A DNA stretch of 64,000 nucleotides, taken from the NCBI RefSeq assembly GCF_014696345.1, contig NZ_JACJPY010000005.1:1-64000 (forward strand), given 5' to 3'. The notes under the pieces are model-generated. The model worked only from the letters and a program-made list of their open reading frames with translations, was not told the origin of the DNA and ran no database searches. Of this stretch, positions 55,661 through 63,787 are shown piece by piece (position 1 is the first letter of the stretch; every line of letters starts with the position of its first letter). The stretch is from Pseudanabaena cinerea FACHB-1277. GTDB taxonomy: Bacteria > Cyanobacteriota > Cyanobacteriia > Pseudanabaenales > Pseudanabaenaceae. The position numbers were made by a program, and so were the translations under genes.

Positions 55661-58600
55661 TCAAGCTTTTACTTGCTGATTTTCCCGATAGTCAGCGATC
55701 CATGTATTTGCCATTTCCAAGAGATTCTGCAATCTTAAATTCCAAAGGATCACATCACTATTGGCATCTACAGAGCCGAGAATTTCACTACTGGGGCTGA
55801 ACATCACCATATTCACGGCAGCTCTATGTCCTTCCAAGGTCATTAGTTCCTTACCATCGAGGCTCCATATTTTGATCTGACCATCGCTGCCTCCAGAGGC
55901 GATCGCATTGCCATCAGGACTAAAGCAAACCGACCGAACTTCGGCAGTATGCTCATTCAAGGACTTTAAGAGCTTGCGCTCTAGATTCCATAGCTTTATG
56001 CTGCCATCTTTGCTAGCACTGGCGATCGTCTGATTGTCTGGACTAAAACTCACCCCATAAACCTCACCCGTATGCCCAACCAATGTACCGATTAAAGTGC
56101 CATCCCAATGCCATATTTTGACAGTTTTATCTTGACTGGCGGTTGCCAACATATTGCCATCGGGGCTAAAGCAAACTTGGTGAATCATATTGGCATGACC
56201 CGTTAAAGTATGTACCCATTCCCCATCTTTATTCCATAATTTCACCAAACAATCGCTACTGGCAGTGGCAAAGATTTCGCCATCACCACGATAGGCAATG
56301 CTATTGATCGCAGATTCATGTTCGTTATAAATAGATTTAATTAAGCTTCCTTTAAAACTCCAAATTTTGATTGCGCGATCGCTGCCCACCGATAGAATAT
56401 TGCTGTCATCGGGGCTAAAACAGACGCTATTTACCGAATCCTTATGTCCATTCAAAACGCGGACTAGTTTACCCTCCATAGTCCAAATCTTGACCGCAAG
56501 ATCCGCACTAGCAGTTACGACAAAACACCCATTCTTACTAAAAGCGATGCTATTCACTTCATCAGTATGTTCTGTCAATCGTAATGGCTGATATCCCATA
56601 GTACGCCAAAACTTAACAGTCGTATCTTGACTACCTGTGATGAACATTTTGCCGTTACCACCAAAACAAAGGCTATGGATTGCGCCTTTATGTCCGCGAC
56701 AGGTATGGATTACATTTCCCTGCAAATCCCAAAACTTGATCGAGCGATCTCTACTTGCCGAGGCTAAATAATGCCCACTCGGATGAAACCTTACTACTGA
56801 AATTCTATCCGTATGTCCTTCGAGCATCGCCACTAAATTGCCCTGTATATTCCAGAGCTTAATATTGCGCCCACGACTGGCGGTGGCAATTAATTTTCCC
56901 GAAGGAGAGATATCCAAATCTTCGATAAAGTTATCATCGGCGATAAATTTTTTAATCAGTGTGCCATTGACATTCCAGATAATTACTGAGCTATCAGCGC
57001 TACCTGTGACGATTTTTTCACCATCACTACTAAAGCGCAAGCAAGTAATCCATTTAAGATGTCCACCTGCAAAGGTATTAAAGAGAGTGCCATCATCGCG
57101 CCATAGTCGAATTTTGACATCTTCACCGCAGGAGGCAAAAATGGCATCGGTAGGACTAAACTGCAAGGCAAGTACTGGCGCTTGATGATCCTTAAGAATC
57201 TGCGCTGGCTGATCGATAAACTGTTTGGTCAATCGGTTGAGCTTCCATAACCGAATTGTGCCATCTCGACTACCTGAAGCGAGAATCTGTCCATTGCTAT
57301 TAAAACTCAAACAGGTAATCCAATTAGTATGCCCCACGAGAACTTGAAGCAGCTTTCCTTTACTATCCCAAATTTTGATGGTGCGATCGCTGCTACCTGT
57401 TGCAATTAAGCGATCGCCATTCTGGAGCGCAATACAGGTGACTCTATCTAAATGAGCCGCTAAGCGATTGTACTCGTTAACATTATAAACCGCTTGATGC
57501 AGAGCCGTAATCCCATGCATCCGCAATTTGACGCGCTCGGCGATATTATTTTCTAGATCTAATAACTGCTGCGCCGCTTCCATCGACTCTAGTAAAGAAT
57601 CAAAATGTTGATTTAAAATAAAAGTTGCTTTTGCAGAGGCACTTTTGAGGACTACCTCCGCTTCCATTAAACTGGCATAGAGTTTTTGCTGCATCTCCAC
57701 TAGGCGAACTTTGGCATCTCGTTCTGCCATTAGGGTCTGTTCCAGACGGCTTTTAGCTGCCGACAAAACTTGGTTAGCTTCCTCTTGGGCAACTAATGCT
57801 AATTCTATTTCTTTCTTTTCACATTCTTGGCTTGCCGAGAAGAACTGATAGTCTTGATTGCTTAAGTTCTTATCCGCCGCCCATTGCAGCGCATCCTGTA
57901 AGGCGCGTCCCCTTAAAAGCCTTGACTCATCTTGATAACCAGAATCAACCCAAGCTTTAAATGCTTCACTATAGGGACGTAAATTAGCAAGCGCTTGATT
58001 TACCCATTGCTGATTAAAAATGGCAGCGTAAATTGGATTATAAACCTTGAGGCGACCATTGCGCTTAACCACTAGCCCCGTCATACGTAGTTCTGTTTGT
58101 TCTTGACTATCATCGGCAATAATGCCCTCCTCTAGCTTAGGAACAGTCGCATCTGGATCTTGATCTGCGTTTTGATTGCGATAATTAGCATGACTTTGAG
58201 CATATATTTCTGATTGTAAAATCTGTTGATATAGCCCCAGCAACTTTCCTTGCCGATTTTCACTACTCCAAAGAATGCGATCGCGAATTGTTTTGAAATG
58301 TTCTGGTTGATCCCGCGCTTCCCAATTTTCCACTAACTGCGATCGCACCAAATTACTCACCCAGACCAACTCATGGTTGAGAGGAATCTGCTCGCAGGAA
58401 TTGAGAACCATTTTGCAAAGTTTCTGAGTTAAAAAAGGTTGCCCCCCTGTATAAGCAATAATTGCTTTTAGTACCGCTACAGGGTTTTTAGACTTGGTTA
58501 ATATCCCTCTGAGCAAAGGTTTAGCTTCTTTGAGTTGAAAGCCACGCAACTCGATCGCTCGACCAATATTAAAGGGAGTACGCTGACGATCATGAATGAG

Positions 58601-59179
58601 ATCCCCAGGGGTAGCTACACCAAAAATGGCAAAGGTTAGTCTTCTATAGGAAATGCGATCAGCTCTACGGTTAAAGGCTTCGCGAATTAAGGCAAAAAAA
58701 TCATCCACAGGAAATCCTAAACTGAGGATGCTATCAATTTCATCAATAAACAAGACAATGGGGGAGGAAATATGTTTGAGCAGCCCTTCATCTAGGAATT
58801 TGCCAAAACGCTGCACAGGCGAAATTAATCGATGCTGTTCCCACCATGCTTCTAAATCAAAAACATCATATAGATTAAGGCTGCTGACAATGCTATCAAT
58901 CAATCCTGCATACCATTGATCGGGACTAATATCAGAAGTACCGATCGCCGTAATGTCGACAGCCGCACAGGTATAACCTTCTTCAACGAGTCGCTTCATC
59001 GTGCGTACCCTAAGGCTAGACTTGCCCATTTGCCGAGAATTGAGGATATAGCAAAATTCCCCTTGCTTTAAGCTCTCATATAAATCCGTGTCAGCCTGCC
59101 GCTCCACATAGGTCTGTGAGTCTAGCGTCAAGCTGCCACCAACTTGATATAAGTTGTGGATTTGGTTTCCTAAAGTCAT
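55661..59179 (-). CDS. AAA-like STAND ATPase with 14 WD40 repeats
   Basis: A 1172-residue protein. Residues 1-330 are an AAA-like (STAND-type) ATPase with P-loop NSRQMGKSSL (47-56) and Walker B IVLFIDEIDS (141-150). A winged-helix and linker follow, then an Ala/Gln/Glu-rich coiled coil (about 450-560). A helical stretch leads into fourteen WD40 repeats (about 580-1150), enough for two seven-bladed propellers; most units end in KIW or KLW. The second gene of a two-gene operon: its start is 32 bases after the kinase stop. It probably senses a ligand through the propellers and switches via ATP; the output is unknown. Confidence 0.88.
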   Translation of the reverse strand: MTLGNQIHNLYQVGGSLTLDSQTYVERQADTDLYESLKQGEFCYILNSRQMGKSSLRVRTMKRLVEEGYTCAAVDITAIGTSDISPDQWYAGLIDSIVSSLNLYDVFDLEAWWEQHRLISPVQRFGKFLDEGLLKHISSPIVLFIDEIDSILSLGFPVDDFFALIREAFNRRADRISYRRLTFAIFGVATPGDLIHDRQRTPFNIGRAIELRGFQLKEAKPLLRGILTKSKNPVAVLKAIIAYTGGQPFLTQKLCKMVLNSCEQIPLNHELVWVSNLVRSQLVENWEARDQPEHFKTIRDRILWSSENRQGKLLGLYQQILQSEIYAQSHANYRNQNADQDPDATVPKLEEGIIADDSQEQTELRMTGLVVKRNGRLKVYNPIYAAIFNQQWVNQALANLRPYSEAFKAWVDSGYQDESRLLRGRALQDALQWAADKNLSNQDYQFFSASQECEKKEIELALVAQEEANQVLSAAKSRLEQTLMAERDAKVRLVEMQQKLYASLMEAEVVLKSASAKATFILNQHFDSLLESMEAAQQLLDLENNIAERVKLRMHGITALHQAVYNVNEYNRLAAHLDRVTCIALQNGDRLIATGSSDRTIKIWDSKGKLLQVLVGHTNWITCLSFNSNGQILASGSRDGTIRLWKLNRLTKQFIDQPAQILKDHQAPVLALQFSPTDAIFASCGEDVKIRLWRDDGTLFNTFAGGHLKWITCLRFSSDGEKIVTGSADSSVIIWNVNGTLIKKFIADDNFIEDLDISPSGKLIATASRGRNIKLWNIQGNLVAMLEGHTDRISVVRFHPSGHYLASASRDRSIKFWDLQGNVIHTCRGHKGAIHSLCFGGNGKMFITGSQDTTVKFWRTMGYQPLRLTEHTDEVNSIAFSKNGCFVVTASADLAVKIWTMEGKLVRVLNGHKDSVNSVCFSPDDSNILSVGSDRAIKIWSFKGSLIKSIYNEHESAINSIAYRGDGEIFATASSDCLVKLWNKDGEWVHTLTGHANMIHQVCFSPDGNMLATASQDKTVKIWHWDGTLIGTLVGHTGEVYGVSFSPDNQTIASASKDGSIKLWNLERKLLKSLNEHTAEVRSVCFSPDGNAIASGGSDGQIKIWSLDGKELMTLEGHRAAVNMVMFSPSSEILGSVDANSDVILWNLRLQNLLEMANTWIADYRENQQVKA

Positions 59180-59211
59180 GTCTTTATCAGTTTTAACGGA
59201 TAATCTCTCGG

Positions 59212-61140
59212 CTAAATCCTTAAACTCTGACGGAAGTATTCATAATATAGCTCACACATCGGCACAACTTGGTTGCCCAGAAACTTAACTAAGCCAATAC
59301 TCCGCAACTTAAAAGCCAGACGGCTATCTAACTGTAATGGGCGATCGCTGATTAATAATTCTCTAAATGCTTCTAACAACTCCTGATCCTCCTTAAGATT
59401 TCCCAATTGACGACGTAGGTGATCGCCATAAATCCCTTCTTCCGTTGATGCAGATTGTATTAACTGCGCCCAATTTAAGCGCCCTCTTGCAATTTGATAA
59501 AGAGCCTGCCGCACTAAATAGGGCTGTCCCCCTGTAAGCTGCATCAGTTGATCGATATCAGATGTCTGCCAATTCAATTGGTGGCGGCTCACCAAATCAC
59601 GCACCTGCTCATAGTTAAACTCAGGTAACTCGATTGGTAAACCCACATTAAAGGGAGATTGATTGATATTCAAAGGAATATAAACCTCCTTAGAATGCAC
59701 AATTACGAGCCTAAGCTTTTTCCATATTTCTTCATTCTTTGCCTTCTCATGCCAAGCTCGCAGCAATCCAAAAAAATCTGAGGCAATTTTAGGATATTGG
59801 AATATTAAGTCTAGATCATCCAAACCCAACACAATCGGCGTATCAAAGGCGGCTAATAAATAGCGTTGAAAATATTTAGTACATTTATTCTTGCTACCTA
59901 AAACACCTTGCCAATAAGTATCAATATTTTCTTCAAGATTTAACTCCGCCGCCACACTCGCACAAAACCATTTCAAAAACAGATCCAAATCTGCAAAAAC
60001 ATCACTATCTGCTTGCTGAAAATAAAGGTGTGCCACTTGACAACCCTTGTATTTAGCATAGGCAAGAGTCCGCATCAATAATGAAGATTTGCCCATCTGG
60101 CGCGGTGCTTTGATCCTGATTAAAGCTCCTGATCGCAAAATCGTCTCACAACAGTCTTGCTCAATGGGCGATCGCATCGTATAAAACTTTGAGCTGATCG
60201 CAATTTGTCCCTCAGGCTCCTCCAACTCAAAGGTCTGGGTAAGGTCTGGGCTGGGAGGGGTAGGGATGATTTTGGTATTAGTGGCAATGGAATTTAGAAA
60301 ATCATTTAAGGTCTGCAATGTCTCCCCAGCATCTCTAAACCTTTGGCGATAGTCATAGCACACCATTTTGTCGATGATTGCCGCCAATTTTAAATTAATC
60401 TGTATGCCCACCTTTGCCGTCGCGAGGGTACATAGATATTCATTGTTTTGGCTATCCTTGGGTAGTTGATCGTGGGTCAATCCCGTTAGCCCTTGGAGGC
60501 AGACAATTCCTAGAGCATAAATATCACTAGAGAATTTGGGCTGTCCTGCTAACTGCTCACTAGGCATATAAAGTAGCGAACCCACTACGACCGTTTTGGC
60601 TTCGCGCTCCGATTGCATCTCATCAATCGCAATGTTGCTAATCGCCTTGACCGCCCCAAAGTCGATCAGGCAGATCTGGCGATCGCTCTGGCGGCGAATT
60701 AGGTTAGCAGGTTTGATATCCCGATGGATCACATTTGACTGATGCACAAAGGCGAGAACTTGCAGAATATTTCGCAATGAAAGAATTAACTCCGCTTGCG
60801 TCCATTTATGACCGCTCGCAAACTCAGCCTTAATCGTATTTCCATCTACAAATTCCTGTACCAAATAAAACTTGCCCCCCTGCTCAAAATGGGCAAATAA
60901 GCGCGGAATTTGTGGATGATTGCCAAGCTCATGCAAGGTTTGCGCCTCTCGATCAAATAGCCGCTTGGCGATCGCCAGTTCTTGTTCTTTCTGCAATTTA
61001 GGGTTCAACTGCTTTACCACACAGTAAGGCGAGTTGGGCAACTGTAAATCTTTTGACAAAAAAGTTCTCCCAAAACCACCACTGACAAGAGGTTTAAGAA
61101 TCTGATAGCGCCCTGCAAGGATAATCGGCTTGGTGGTCAT
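59212..61140 (-). CDS. Ser/Thr protein kinase fused to AAA-like STAND ATPase
   Basis: A 642-residue protein. The kinase domain (10-285) has the glycine loop VSGGFGRTF, Lys43, Glu65, the catalytic loop HRDIKPAN (His139, Asp141, Asn146) and DFG (Asp160), so it should be active. The second part (315-640) is an ATPase of the same AAA-like class as the next gene, with P-loop KAPRQMGKSSLL (345-354) and IVLGLDDLDLI as Walker B. There is no membrane segment. It leads an operon with the WD40 ATPase. The shared ATPase type suggests that the two co-assemble and that the kinase is either the effector or the regulator. Confidence 0.9.
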   Translation of the reverse strand: MTTKPIILAGRYQILKPLVSGGFGRTFLSKDLQLPNSPYCVVKQLNPKLQKEQELAIAKRLFDREAQTLHELGNHPQIPRLFAHFEQGGKFYLVQEFVDGNTIKAEFASGHKWTQAELILSLRNILQVLAFVHQSNVIHRDIKPANLIRRQSDRQICLIDFGAVKAISNIAIDEMQSEREAKTVVVGSLLYMPSEQLAGQPKFSSDIYALGIVCLQGLTGLTHDQLPKDSQNNEYLCTLATAKVGIQINLKLAAIIDKMVCYDYRQRFRDAGETLQTLNDFLNSIATNTKIIPTPPSPDLTQTFELEEPEGQIAISSKFYTMRSPIEQDCCETILRSGALIRIKAPRQMGKSSLLMRTLAYAKYKGCQVAHLYFQQADSDVFADLDLFLKWFCASVAAELNLEENIDTYWQGVLGSKNKCTKYFQRYLLAAFDTPIVLGLDDLDLIFQYPKIASDFFGLLRAWHEKAKNEEIWKKLRLVIVHSKEVYIPLNINQSPFNVGLPIELPEFNYEQVRDLVSRHQLNWQTSDIDQLMQLTGGQPYLVRQALYQIARGRLNWAQLIQSASTEEGIYGDHLRRQLGNLKEDQELLEAFRELLISDRPLQLDSRLAFKLRSIGLVKFLGNQVVPMCELYYEYFRQSLRI

Positions 61141-61507
61141 GGATATAAATAGTGGTCATCCTTTCATAAATTGATCTTAAGAATGATCAGAGTTAATTTT
61201 GTGAACTAACAATGAATTTATAAAGAGCTGCAAAAAATATTAATTCTCAGTCCGCTTCTTGATGTTTTGAGTAGTGTAGAAAAATTTTGAAAGCAAGCCT
61301 TCCAAAAACTCCTTACATTTTAAGTCAGCGCAAACTGGTGTAATTGATCGATAGTATCCTAAAGTCCAAATTTCTATAATTTTAATAATCGGTATTGTCA
61401 ATTTTGGATTTCTCGATTATATTCATCTATAGGCAAATTAAAACTTTAACTTATACGTTATCTTAAAGCTTGAAAGCCTAAGTAAACATTATTAAACATT
61501 TAGACAG
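61141..61507. other. Intergenic region between the kinase gene and the small ORF
   Basis: About 370 AT-rich bases with no credible ORF. It must contain the minus-strand promoter of the kinase operon and the plus-strand promoter of the small transcript. TAAACATTATTAAACAT near 61483-61500 could include a -10 box, with low certainty. Confidence 0.4.
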
Positions 61508-61522
61508 AAGGAGGTGATGCCC

Positions 61523-61597
61523 ATGCAGTCAGATAGTAGTAACGGTAAATGTGTGGGTCTTCAGGTTTCCGAGCTGTGCGCTGGGGCTGTTCTCTAA
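61523..61597 (+). CDS. 24-residue small ORF with very strong Shine-Dalgarno
   Basis: ATG 61523 is preceded by AAGGAGGTGAT (61508-61518), which can pair with the full anti-Shine-Dalgarno end of 16S rRNA at ideal spacing. It encodes MQSDSSNGKCVGLQVSELCA followed by GAVL and TAA. It has two Cys and no membrane segment. A strong terminator follows 54 bases later, so the transcript would be about 200 bases. It could be a small protein, a peptide pheromone or precursor, or a leader on an sRNA. I do not recognise it. Confidence 0.55.
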   Translation: MQSDSSNGKCVGLQVSELCAGAVL

Positions 61598-61650
61598 ATA
61601 AGATCCTTCCAGCAGTTGTCTGTAACCTCAAGATCCTATAGATTTCCCAT

Positions 61651-61691
61651 AAAGCAAAAGCACCTAGCCAATGGCTAGGTGCTTTTGCTTT
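61651..61691. terminator. 19-bp perfect hairpin terminator
   Basis: Arms AAAGCAAAAGCACCTAGCC and GGCTAGGTGCTTTTGCTTT around AAT. It ends the small plus-strand transcript. The T-run inside the distal arm resembles a rho-independent terminator on both strands. Confidence 0.85.
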
Positions 61692-61701
61692 GGCAAAAAA
61701 C

Positions 61702-61732
61702 TAGTGTGGTAGCGCATTGCGCCACCACACTA
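61702..61732. terminator. Hairpin overlapping the mutS2 stop codon
   Basis: Arms AGTGTGGTAGCGCA and TGCGCCACCACACT with one mismatch. It includes the TAG of mutS2 on the minus strand, so together with the hairpin at 61651 it separates mutS2 from the small ORF. Confidence 0.6.
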
Positions 61733-63787
61733 ACTAATCTTTTCAATATCCGCCAGATTAACGGTTAACTTCATGTGACCAAGGCGCACCGAAAACTCTC
61801 CCGAACTATTGGGAGCCGTGATGGCTTGGGCAACCTTGCCAAATTTAGGGATGCGTACCCGATCGCCGATTTTAACTAGCACCTCCACCTTCTGCTCGAT
61901 AACTTCAGGCATATGCCGCTTGGTCAACTCCTCAATGCGTTGCTCTGTGCGCTGTACTGCCGCAATCTGTTCGTCGGACTGTTCGCCCTTTTGCAGTTTG
62001 CGAATGACGCGCCCCACTTCTTTTTGGGCTTGGGCGATCGCGGCTGCCACTTCCTTTTCTTGCTTCTCCCGCAATTCCTTTGCCTGCGATCGCATCTTTT
62101 CCGCCCGTTCCAAAATCTCACTATGCAGTCGTTCTGTTTCTGCTAATAAATGGGCGGCGGCGGTCGTTTTTTGGGTTTGCTCGCGGCGCTGTGCCTCCAG
62201 TTCGGCAATCACCTCATTCATTTCCGCCGAACCAATGCCCACACGGGTTTGGGCAGCATCGATAATATCCTGCGGTAAGCCCAAACGACCAGCGATCGCT
62301 AAGGCATTGGAGCGCCCTGGAATCCCCCATAGCAAATGATAGGTAGGCGCTAGGGATGCGTCATCAAACTCCACCGAGGCATTCTCAAATTTAGGATTTT
62401 GATATTTCAAAGCCTTGAGTTCGCCGAAATGGGTGGTGGCAATGGTCAGGCTTGTATGTTCGCCGAGATATTCCAATAATGCCGTAGCGATCGCACTGCC
62501 CTCTGAAGGGTCAGTACCCGCACCCACCTCATCGAGCAGCACTAACGATTGATCGGAAAGGGCATCCAGAATGCGCCCAATGCGGCGAATATGTCCTGAA
62601 AAGGTCGATAAATTTTGCTGTAGGGATTGCTCATCGCCAATATCCGCCAACACCAGATCGAACCAAGGCATTTCCACAGGCTCTCTAGCAGGGATATACA
62701 TTCCCGCCTTTGCCATCAGCGCCGCTAGTCCAAAGGTTTTTAGAGTCGCGGTTTTGCCGCCCGTATTCGGGCCTGTGATTACCACCACCGCAATATCTGG
62801 GGACACTAAAATATCCACAGGAACCACCGATCGCCCCTCTTCATTACGCTCTTGCCACACCAAAAGCGGATGGCGTAACTGGCGCAACACGATCGCCTGA
62901 TGTTCTTGCCTTTGACTAAAATAGGGCGGATTTGCCCCCAACCAATAGGCATAACGCGCCTTTGCCACTGCCAGATCAATTTTGGTGACAATAATTAACA
63001 GCCTTTGCAAATCCTCCGCAATATCCGTCACCTTGGCACTCAGCGCCGCCAGAATGATCTCAATTTGGGTCTGCTCCATCTTTTGCAATTGCCGCAAGCG
63101 ATTATTGGATTGCACAATGGAGTTCGGCTCCACAAATAGGGTCATGCCCGTACTAGAAGTATCATGCACTACCCCAGGGATGCGATCGCGTTGGGGCGAC
63201 TTCACCGACAACACATAGCGATCGCTGCGTTGGGTAATAATCTGCTCCTGTAAGGAATTAGCGTTGCGCTGCATAATATTTTGCAGCTTAGTAATAATTT
63301 GATCGCGTACCGCAGTTAGCTCATCCCGAATCTCTCCCAACCTTGCCGAAGCACGATCCAACACATTGCCGCCCTCATCTATGCAGCGATAGATCTCCTG
63401 CTCCACATCAGGGTATGTCCGCAAATCGCTAGTCAAAATCTGTAAATTGGGGCAGCAGTCGGCATTATCGATCTGGCGGCGCAAATTCCTTGCCCCTGCT
63501 AGAGTGGTTGCCACTGCCCATAGTTCCGATGCTGACAGATTGCCCTGTTTCTCTGCCCTCAGCACCGCCTCCGTAATATCCTGAATCCCATCAAGGGATA
63601 CCCCCGCATTTCTCTCCTCAAGGGCATAGGCTTCTTTAGTTTGGGTGAGCAGTTCCCATGTTTGCTCGTAGCGATCGGGGATCGGCAATCTTGTCGAGGC
63701 GATCGCACCCAGCTTTGTCGTTGTAAATGTGGATAAATGCTGACATAACCGATTCCATTCCAACAGTTCTAACGTCTCAGCTTGCAT
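61730..63787 (-). CDS. mutS2: MutS2 family ATPase without Smr domain
   Basis: A 685-residue MutS2 protein. It has an N-terminal MutS-like core (LEWNRLCQHLSTFTTTKLGA), a lever region (SSTGMTLFVEPNSIVQSNNR) and an ATPase domain: Walker A GPNTGGKTATLKTFGLAALM, Walker B LVLLDEVGAGTDPSEGSA and the switch motif IATTHFGELKAL. A long coiled coil (EMNEVIAELEAQRREQTQKT onwards) and a C-terminal KOW-like strand region (GDRVRIPKFGKV) follow. Typical MutS2 is near 780-800 residues and ends in an Smr endonuclease domain; this one stops before it. MutS2 acts on collided ribosomes or suppresses recombination. Without Smr it can bind and use ATP but should not nick. Confidence 0.92.
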   Translation of the reverse strand: MQAETLELLEWNRLCQHLSTFTTTKLGAIASTRLPIPDRYEQTWELLTQTKEAYALEERNAGVSLDGIQDITEAVLRAEKQGNLSASELWAVATTLAGARNLRRQIDNADCCPNLQILTSDLRTYPDVEQEIYRCIDEGGNVLDRASARLGEIRDELTAVRDQIITKLQNIMQRNANSLQEQIITQRSDRYVLSVKSPQRDRIPGVVHDTSSTGMTLFVEPNSIVQSNNRLRQLQKMEQTQIEIILAALSAKVTDIAEDLQRLLIIVTKIDLAVAKARYAYWLGANPPYFSQRQEHQAIVLRQLRHPLLVWQERNEEGRSVVPVDILVSPDIAVVVITGPNTGGKTATLKTFGLAALMAKAGMYIPAREPVEMPWFDLVLADIGDEQSLQQNLSTFSGHIRRIGRILDALSDQSLVLLDEVGAGTDPSEGSAIATALLEYLGEHTSLTIATTHFGELKALKYQNPKFENASVEFDDASLAPTYHLLWGIPGRSNALAIAGRLGLPQDIIDAAQTRVGIGSAEMNEVIAELEAQRREQTQKTTAAAHLLAETERLHSEILERAEKMRSQAKELREKQEKEVAAAIAQAQKEVGRVIRKLQKGEQSDEQIAAVQRTEQRIEELTKRHMPEVIEQKVEVLVKIGDRVRIPKFGKVAQAITAPNSSGEFSVRLGHMKLTVNLADIEKIS

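Follow-up and report, generated by a model that had tools for sequence, protein, structure and literature searches.

A short unit of Pseudanabaena cinerea FACHB-1277 is selected on the same bases both as a reading frame and as one arm of an RNA hairpin. Most of a 24-codon ORF is held in this long covarying hairpin, which was overlooked in the preliminary description of the DNA, and the unit is both larger and older than it appeared there. Since the constraint on folding and the constraint on translation are superimposed, it would qualify neither as an ordinary peptide gene nor as a simple sRNA. The interpretation favoured here, at a little under even confidence, is that of a translated hairpin RNA, i.e. 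an autonomous, attenuator-like small RNA whose 3′ arm would be released by translation of the ORF.

Organization of the unit

The window, which is the whole stretch of 64,000 nt that was analysed, contains the following features of the unit:

61395..61400, + strand: predicted −35 box TTGTCA, assigned by eye and consensus, aligning with TTGTCA upstream in nearly all other Pseudanabaena
61418..61423, + strand: predicted −10 box TATATT after a 17-nt spacer, at the position of TATATT in the congeners
61430..61507, + strand: putative 5′ untranslated region, its start estimated from the −10 box and its 3′ end formed by the conserved ACATTTAGACA
61508..61518, + strand: extended Shine-Dalgarno sequence (SD) AAGGAGGTGAT, within the GGAGGTGATGCCCATG box
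61523..61597, + strand: 24-codon ORF with ATG at 61523 and TAA at 61595-61597, product MQSDSSNGKCVGLQVSELCAGAVL, frame under selection
61544..61594, + strand: 5′ arm of the long hairpin, inside the ORF (window MFE fold, genus consensus fold, covariation in 89 homologues)
61600..61649, + strand: 3′ arm pairing with the ORF, C/U-rich, GATCCTTCCAGCAG and AACCTCAAGATCC (folds and covariation)
61651..61691, + strand: intrinsic terminator with a 19-bp stem, a 3-nt loop and a T-rich 3′ side; the terminator hairpins of homologues covary

SD, 24-codon frame from ATG to TAA and terminator all lie where the preliminary description had placed them. The flanking genes, named from the sequence without family search, are kinase-like (59212-61140, − strand) and mutS2-like (61730-63787, − strand). 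Two adjacent large genes at 55661-61140 (− strand) were judged by eye to be a fusion of an ATPase-like domain with WD repeats and a fusion of a Ser/Thr kinase with a similar ATPase-like domain.

Distribution and nucleotide conservation

Of 97 related genomes, 69 were matched by the DNA query; the closest whole genomes are members of the same genus. The strongest block of the alignments began upstream of the SD and ended exactly at the stop codon; chance can therefore be excluded. The frame is thus conserved in close relatives, a condition on which the preliminary description had made its proposal depend. The exact DNA pattern of the box followed by GAYAGTAGTAA was found in at least 114 stretches in a set of 84,980 species genomes, and the titles seen among the matches listed were cyanobacterial, including Thermosynechococcus, Fischerella, Moorena, Nostoc and Picosynechococcus. 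With a model built from sequence only, 386 genomes of the phylum were screened, and 122 of them contained the gene, each as a single copy; this model and the DNA query combined, about 37 cyanobacterial family labels carry it. The genomes without a match, among those listed, belonged mostly to one family (f2), probably the Cyanobiaceae (marine picocyanobacteria), and a query with one f2 locus revealed a diverged version in 61 of 101 genomes. The candidate family extends over most cyanobacteria, with one copy in each genome.

The f2 loci (L205-L224) encode a 17-codon peptide of the form (v/m)-S-x-S-C-x-x-Q-G-L-L-I-A-E-N-A-G; their TGA is part of the stem, and the nucleotides GGGTCTGCTGATCGCGGAGAA are almost invariant among them. 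Basal relatives of Pseudanabaena (L031-L037, L068) retain the box and the DSSK start and differ in their 3′ halves; in some of them a short arm after the stop is directly followed by the terminator.

The 16-nt box GGAGGTGATGCCCATG hardly varies among 108 distinct 23-codon homologues, and GA-AGT-AGT-AAA and GGGTC are likewise nearly invariant as nucleotides. Variation at third codon positions is no greater than at the other two (information of 1.45, 1.32 and 1.30 bits for the three positions). A second conserved block, CCUYCCGGCAGUCUGGUUUCAA-CUGA-GACCCGCUANACCGCUC, is located on the 3′ side and followed by the terminator; a few lineages (L077, L084, L099, L117) have lost part of its CCUYCC motif.

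Reading frame

Homologues were chosen by their start region and not by their frame, which gave 178 loci with ORFs of 17-30 codons (one of them cut by a contig end). In-frame stops occurred in none of the 108 sequences, as compared to a mean of 14.9 and a minimum of 6 in 2000 column shuffles, which ignore the relatedness of the sequences and are supporting rather than exact; the other two frames contained stops in 72 and 108 of the 108 sequences, respectively. The ORF segment measured 90 nt in 88 of 89 homologues and 93 nt in the remaining one, and the partner arm varied between 37 and 44 nt in single-base steps. All three stop codons are used (TAA 57, TAG 50, TGA 1 in the 108 homologues). In f2 the start alternates between ATG and GTG, and a TGA stop follows after 17 codons in all loci listed. 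The ORF likewise ends at 17 codons in the Thermosynechococcus-like family f26, while codon 18 of one f12 locus (L193) is TGA, yet the downstream pairing GCCGGAA:UUCCGGC persists there. Early stops with the pairing kept, together with the exchanges of start and stop codons, therefore suggest that being translated is selected and that the C-terminal residues are not.

The reading frame proposed in the preliminary description is thus probably a real, translated one, and on evolutionary evidence the unit resembles a dual-function sRNA in carrying a translated short ORF. A purely non-coding sRNA in which the ORF is accidental would account for the strong conservation at the RNA level and the weak amino acid constraint, but is very improbable in view of the lack of in-frame stops, the restriction of length changes to multiples of three, and the exchange of stop codons and of ATG with GTG.

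RNA fold

In an alignment of 89 homologues (A1), ORF codons 8-21 were tested for pairing with the 3′ block. Of all pair cells 95.6% were formed, a value biased upward by the fact that the structure was read from those same sequences. Double, i.e. compensatory, changes were present at 20 of 37 pairs; compensatory cells numbered 205, as compared to 51 in shuffles, and none of 500 shuffles was as good on any measure. These compensatory counts are not easily explained by the reading of the structure from the same sequences. When the 3′ arm was slid by one base, pairing dropped to about 50%. Unguided folding with RNAalifold yielded identical helices, extended to the end of the ORF by CUCU:GGAG. The comparison of homologues demonstrates that the predicted hairpin, in which the ORF pairs from codon 8 to the stop with the 3′ arm, is under selection.

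The window copy folds alike (MFE, z of −3.85) with a shortened apical linker, as does the consensus of the genus Pseudanabaena. The layout in f2 is alike as well, with GGGUCUGC pairing with GCGGACCC, and CGCGGA with UCCGCG; the stem includes the stop codon. In single-sequence folds, the versions of basal Pseudanabaenaceae-like members are altered or weaker. At window positions 61598-61604 the linker from the stop to the 3′ arm comprises about 7 nt, versus about 55 nt in congeners, and this genome lacks the apical hairpin.

The peptide

The ratio omega was 0.69, a value that is difficult to read, as pairing also constrains the synonymous sites. Codons 7 and 14, which the model leaves unpaired, admit 14 and 16 different residues, respectively, and never a stop. 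Gly20 is replaced by Glu exactly where the partner base changes (GCCGAG with CUCGGC, GCCGAA with UUCGGC). The amino acids thus appear to be only weakly constrained. Of the two Cys pointed out in the preliminary description, the first is not conserved (Arg in congeners), and about one fifth of the homologues have Arg, Ser or Trp in place of the second.

A small mRNA, of which the peptide of 17-24 residues is the functional product and in which the hairpin merely tunes translation or stability, would agree with the conserved frame, start and stop and with the wide recurrence of M-x-D-S-S-K and L-C-A-G-A-V-L, or of xGLLIAENAG in the f2 peptides. This explanation is considered unlikely, since omega is about 0.7, very diverse residues are tolerated at unpaired codons, residues change along with their pairing partners, and the C-terminal six residues are missing in the 17-codon f26 and in f12, where the pairing is kept or rebuilt. 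The new small protein suggested in the preliminary description is therefore not supported as stated, because besides the omega value most of the apparent peptide conservation follows from the pairing of the ORF arm. Codons 3-6 (GAT AGT AGT AAA, encoding DSSK; 61532-61543 in the window and the equivalents elsewhere) are nearly invariant including their third positions, though unpaired in the model; this third-position invariance is not explained by a translated hairpin. A peptide role for the N-terminal M-x-D-S-S-K is conceivable.

Strength of the Shine-Dalgarno sequence

AAGGAGGTGAT at 61508-61518 on the + strand is the sole exact match within the 64-kb window, and three sites were found when one mismatch was allowed, versus 1.2 expected. 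Its duplex with the standard anti-SD AUCACCUCCUUU reaches −19.1 kcal/mol, versus −9.9 kcal/mol for the best of the 29 window ORFs of at least 150 aa, which bears out the earlier view of an exceptional site among weak ones. Pairing with this anti-SD was assumed from general knowledge, because the 16S 3′-end pattern GGATCACCTCCTTT was not found in the organism's own genome and ten relatives, where the rRNA stretches are probably incomplete. Accessibility of the SD is moderate, with a mean unpaired value (RNAfold) of 0.44 in the window and 0.35 outside the genus. In two genomes of family f5 (L191, L192) the extended SD is lost (GGGAGGTTCCTGCGGATG), and GGAGG, ATG, the ORF MPDSSSCKGRQVGFSRLCAGAVL, the hairpin and the terminator are retained; the f2 version carries AGGAGGAGGTG at this site.

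An RNA acting through its SD had been proposed earlier in the form of an sRNA competing for the anti-SD. As a decoy, the extended SD and the start codon would bind 30S subunits and compete with mRNAs, and the 11-nt SD with its −19.1 kcal/mol, the near invariance of the box and a stem beginning about 23 nt past the start codon, where it would hinder elongation, are in line with such a role. The idea has been weakened and now seems quite improbable: the extended complementarity is absent from the two f5 genomes and f2 deviates from it, and a pure decoy does not need an open frame and a stop codon, yet the start and stop codons appear to be selected as such.

Promoter and genomic context

Pseudanabaena genomes share a conserved TTGTCA-N17-TATATT some 85 nt upstream of the SD. 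Outside the genus, TGTGYTANN(N)T is located upstream in 71 of 88 homologues, at a median distance of 77 nt before the SD, versus 0.7 occurrences expected from shuffles. TACGTTATCTTA at 61454-61465 was initially regarded as a promoter and was dropped, as the congeners align with TTGTCA-N17-TATATT upstream of it. With a predicted promoter and a terminator of its own the unit would therefore be autonomous, and the changing neighbours likewise agree with the short autonomous transcription unit described before.

Outside the genus the unit is often flanked by psbD-like and PCD-like genes, the latter with a porin gene behind it (psbD 19 and PCD 48 of about 80-94 loci). Of the 94 named non-Pseudanabaena loci, 48 have a PCD-like gene on the same strand as their next gene; in 11 it is porin-like, and in 13 it is convergent. 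In Pseudanabaena the unit adjoins ychF, or mutS2 as in the window. Because the neighbours change between genomes, the RNA is not tied to one downstream gene. The frequency of PCD-like and porin-like genes on the same strand would fit a cis-acting leader or attenuator of a downstream gene, ancestrally PCD and porin. Such a leader is, however, hardly to be expected where the next gene is convergent, as in the window, most congeners and 13 of the 94 other loci, and where a strong conserved terminator closes the unit; moreover, consensus folding gave one main fold, and inspection by eye revealed no alternative antiterminator helix. This explanation is accordingly given a low probability.

Comparison with known RNAs

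Close parallels are the attenuator leaders of amino acid operons and the RNAs released from them, for example trpL of Sinorhizobium meliloti, in which an SD, a short ORF, a hairpin overlapping the ORF and a terminator are likewise combined in one short transcript, and of which the attenuator leader RNA and peptide (rnTrpL, peTrpL) can act in trans (PMC7298713). In contrast to trpL-type leaders, the window unit lacks a regulated downstream gene and a detected pair of mutually exclusive terminator and antiterminator helices, and its family occurs throughout the phylum at changing locations. Codons for a sensed amino acid were not recognized either, AGT AGT being the only repetition of a codon for one amino acid. 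The dual-function sRNAs SgrS/SgrT, SR1/SR1P and RNAIII (for a cyanobacterial discussion see PMC5126843, PMC2518516) share the combination of an ORF and a conserved RNA structure on one small transcript; there the peptide is conserved and usually encoded apart from the pairing region, whereas here the ORF is the hairpin arm and the peptide is weakly constrained.

Among cyanobacterial sRNAs, Yfr6 and Yfr9 of Prochlorococcus possibly contain short ORFs of 33 and 44 codons (PMC1242208, PMC2518516). Judged by their descriptions they differ in lengths, ORFs and distribution, and the peptide of Yfr6 is related to a family of proteins; an identity of the unit with Yfr6 was considered and set aside. 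SyR1 (PsrR1), SyR2, Yfr1 and Yfr2 are similarly widespread single-gene RNAs with terminators, but they are located at other loci, have other lengths (~130-140 nt, 80 nt) and no described ORF (PMC2662882), and the primer sequences printed for them are unlike the window RNA (PMC2662882).

Rfam 15 gave no match above the gathering score in the window region, and for 16 homologous loci no family match and four weak unrelated hits only. ARAGORN detected no tRNA or tmRNA in the window, and hence no tRNA-like domain as in tmRNA. In the freely accessible papers covered by a literature search, neither the AGAVL peptide of cyanobacteria nor the DNA box was found, nor an sRNA associated with PCD. The RNA family is absent from Rfam and the searched literature; the unit may already figure elsewhere as an unnamed transcript.

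Proposed mode of action and significance

In the translated hairpin RNA, the C/U-rich 3′ arm (CCUYCCGGCAGUCUGG..., partly complementary to the SD) would at rest be locked against the ORF. Ribosomes would load at the strong SD and run through the 5′ arm, and a translating ribosome would open the hairpin up to the stop codon, so that the 3′ arm would be free until termination. The freed arm, which resembles an antisense seed, could then pair with other RNAs as putative targets or, alternatively, with its own SD as a feedback, and the activity of the RNA would thereby be coupled to translation. A cis-acting anti-SD role of the paired CCUYCC was treated as a side idea only, the motif being not consistently kept. 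In a wider form, which is less likely than not, the RNA would be a phylum-wide regulator as old as the cyanobacteria, for which translation itself is the input and the peptide is irrelevant, and whose trans-acting 3′ arm would report translational activity to mRNAs.

The retention of the unit once per genome from deep-branching lineages to f2, yet without an entry in Rfam or the searched literature, points to a basic, overlooked function. A clean double selection of frame and fold on the same bases, with hardly any on the residues, is rare among described bacterial sRNAs, and as the unit occurs in genetically tractable cyanobacteria, its function is directly testable.
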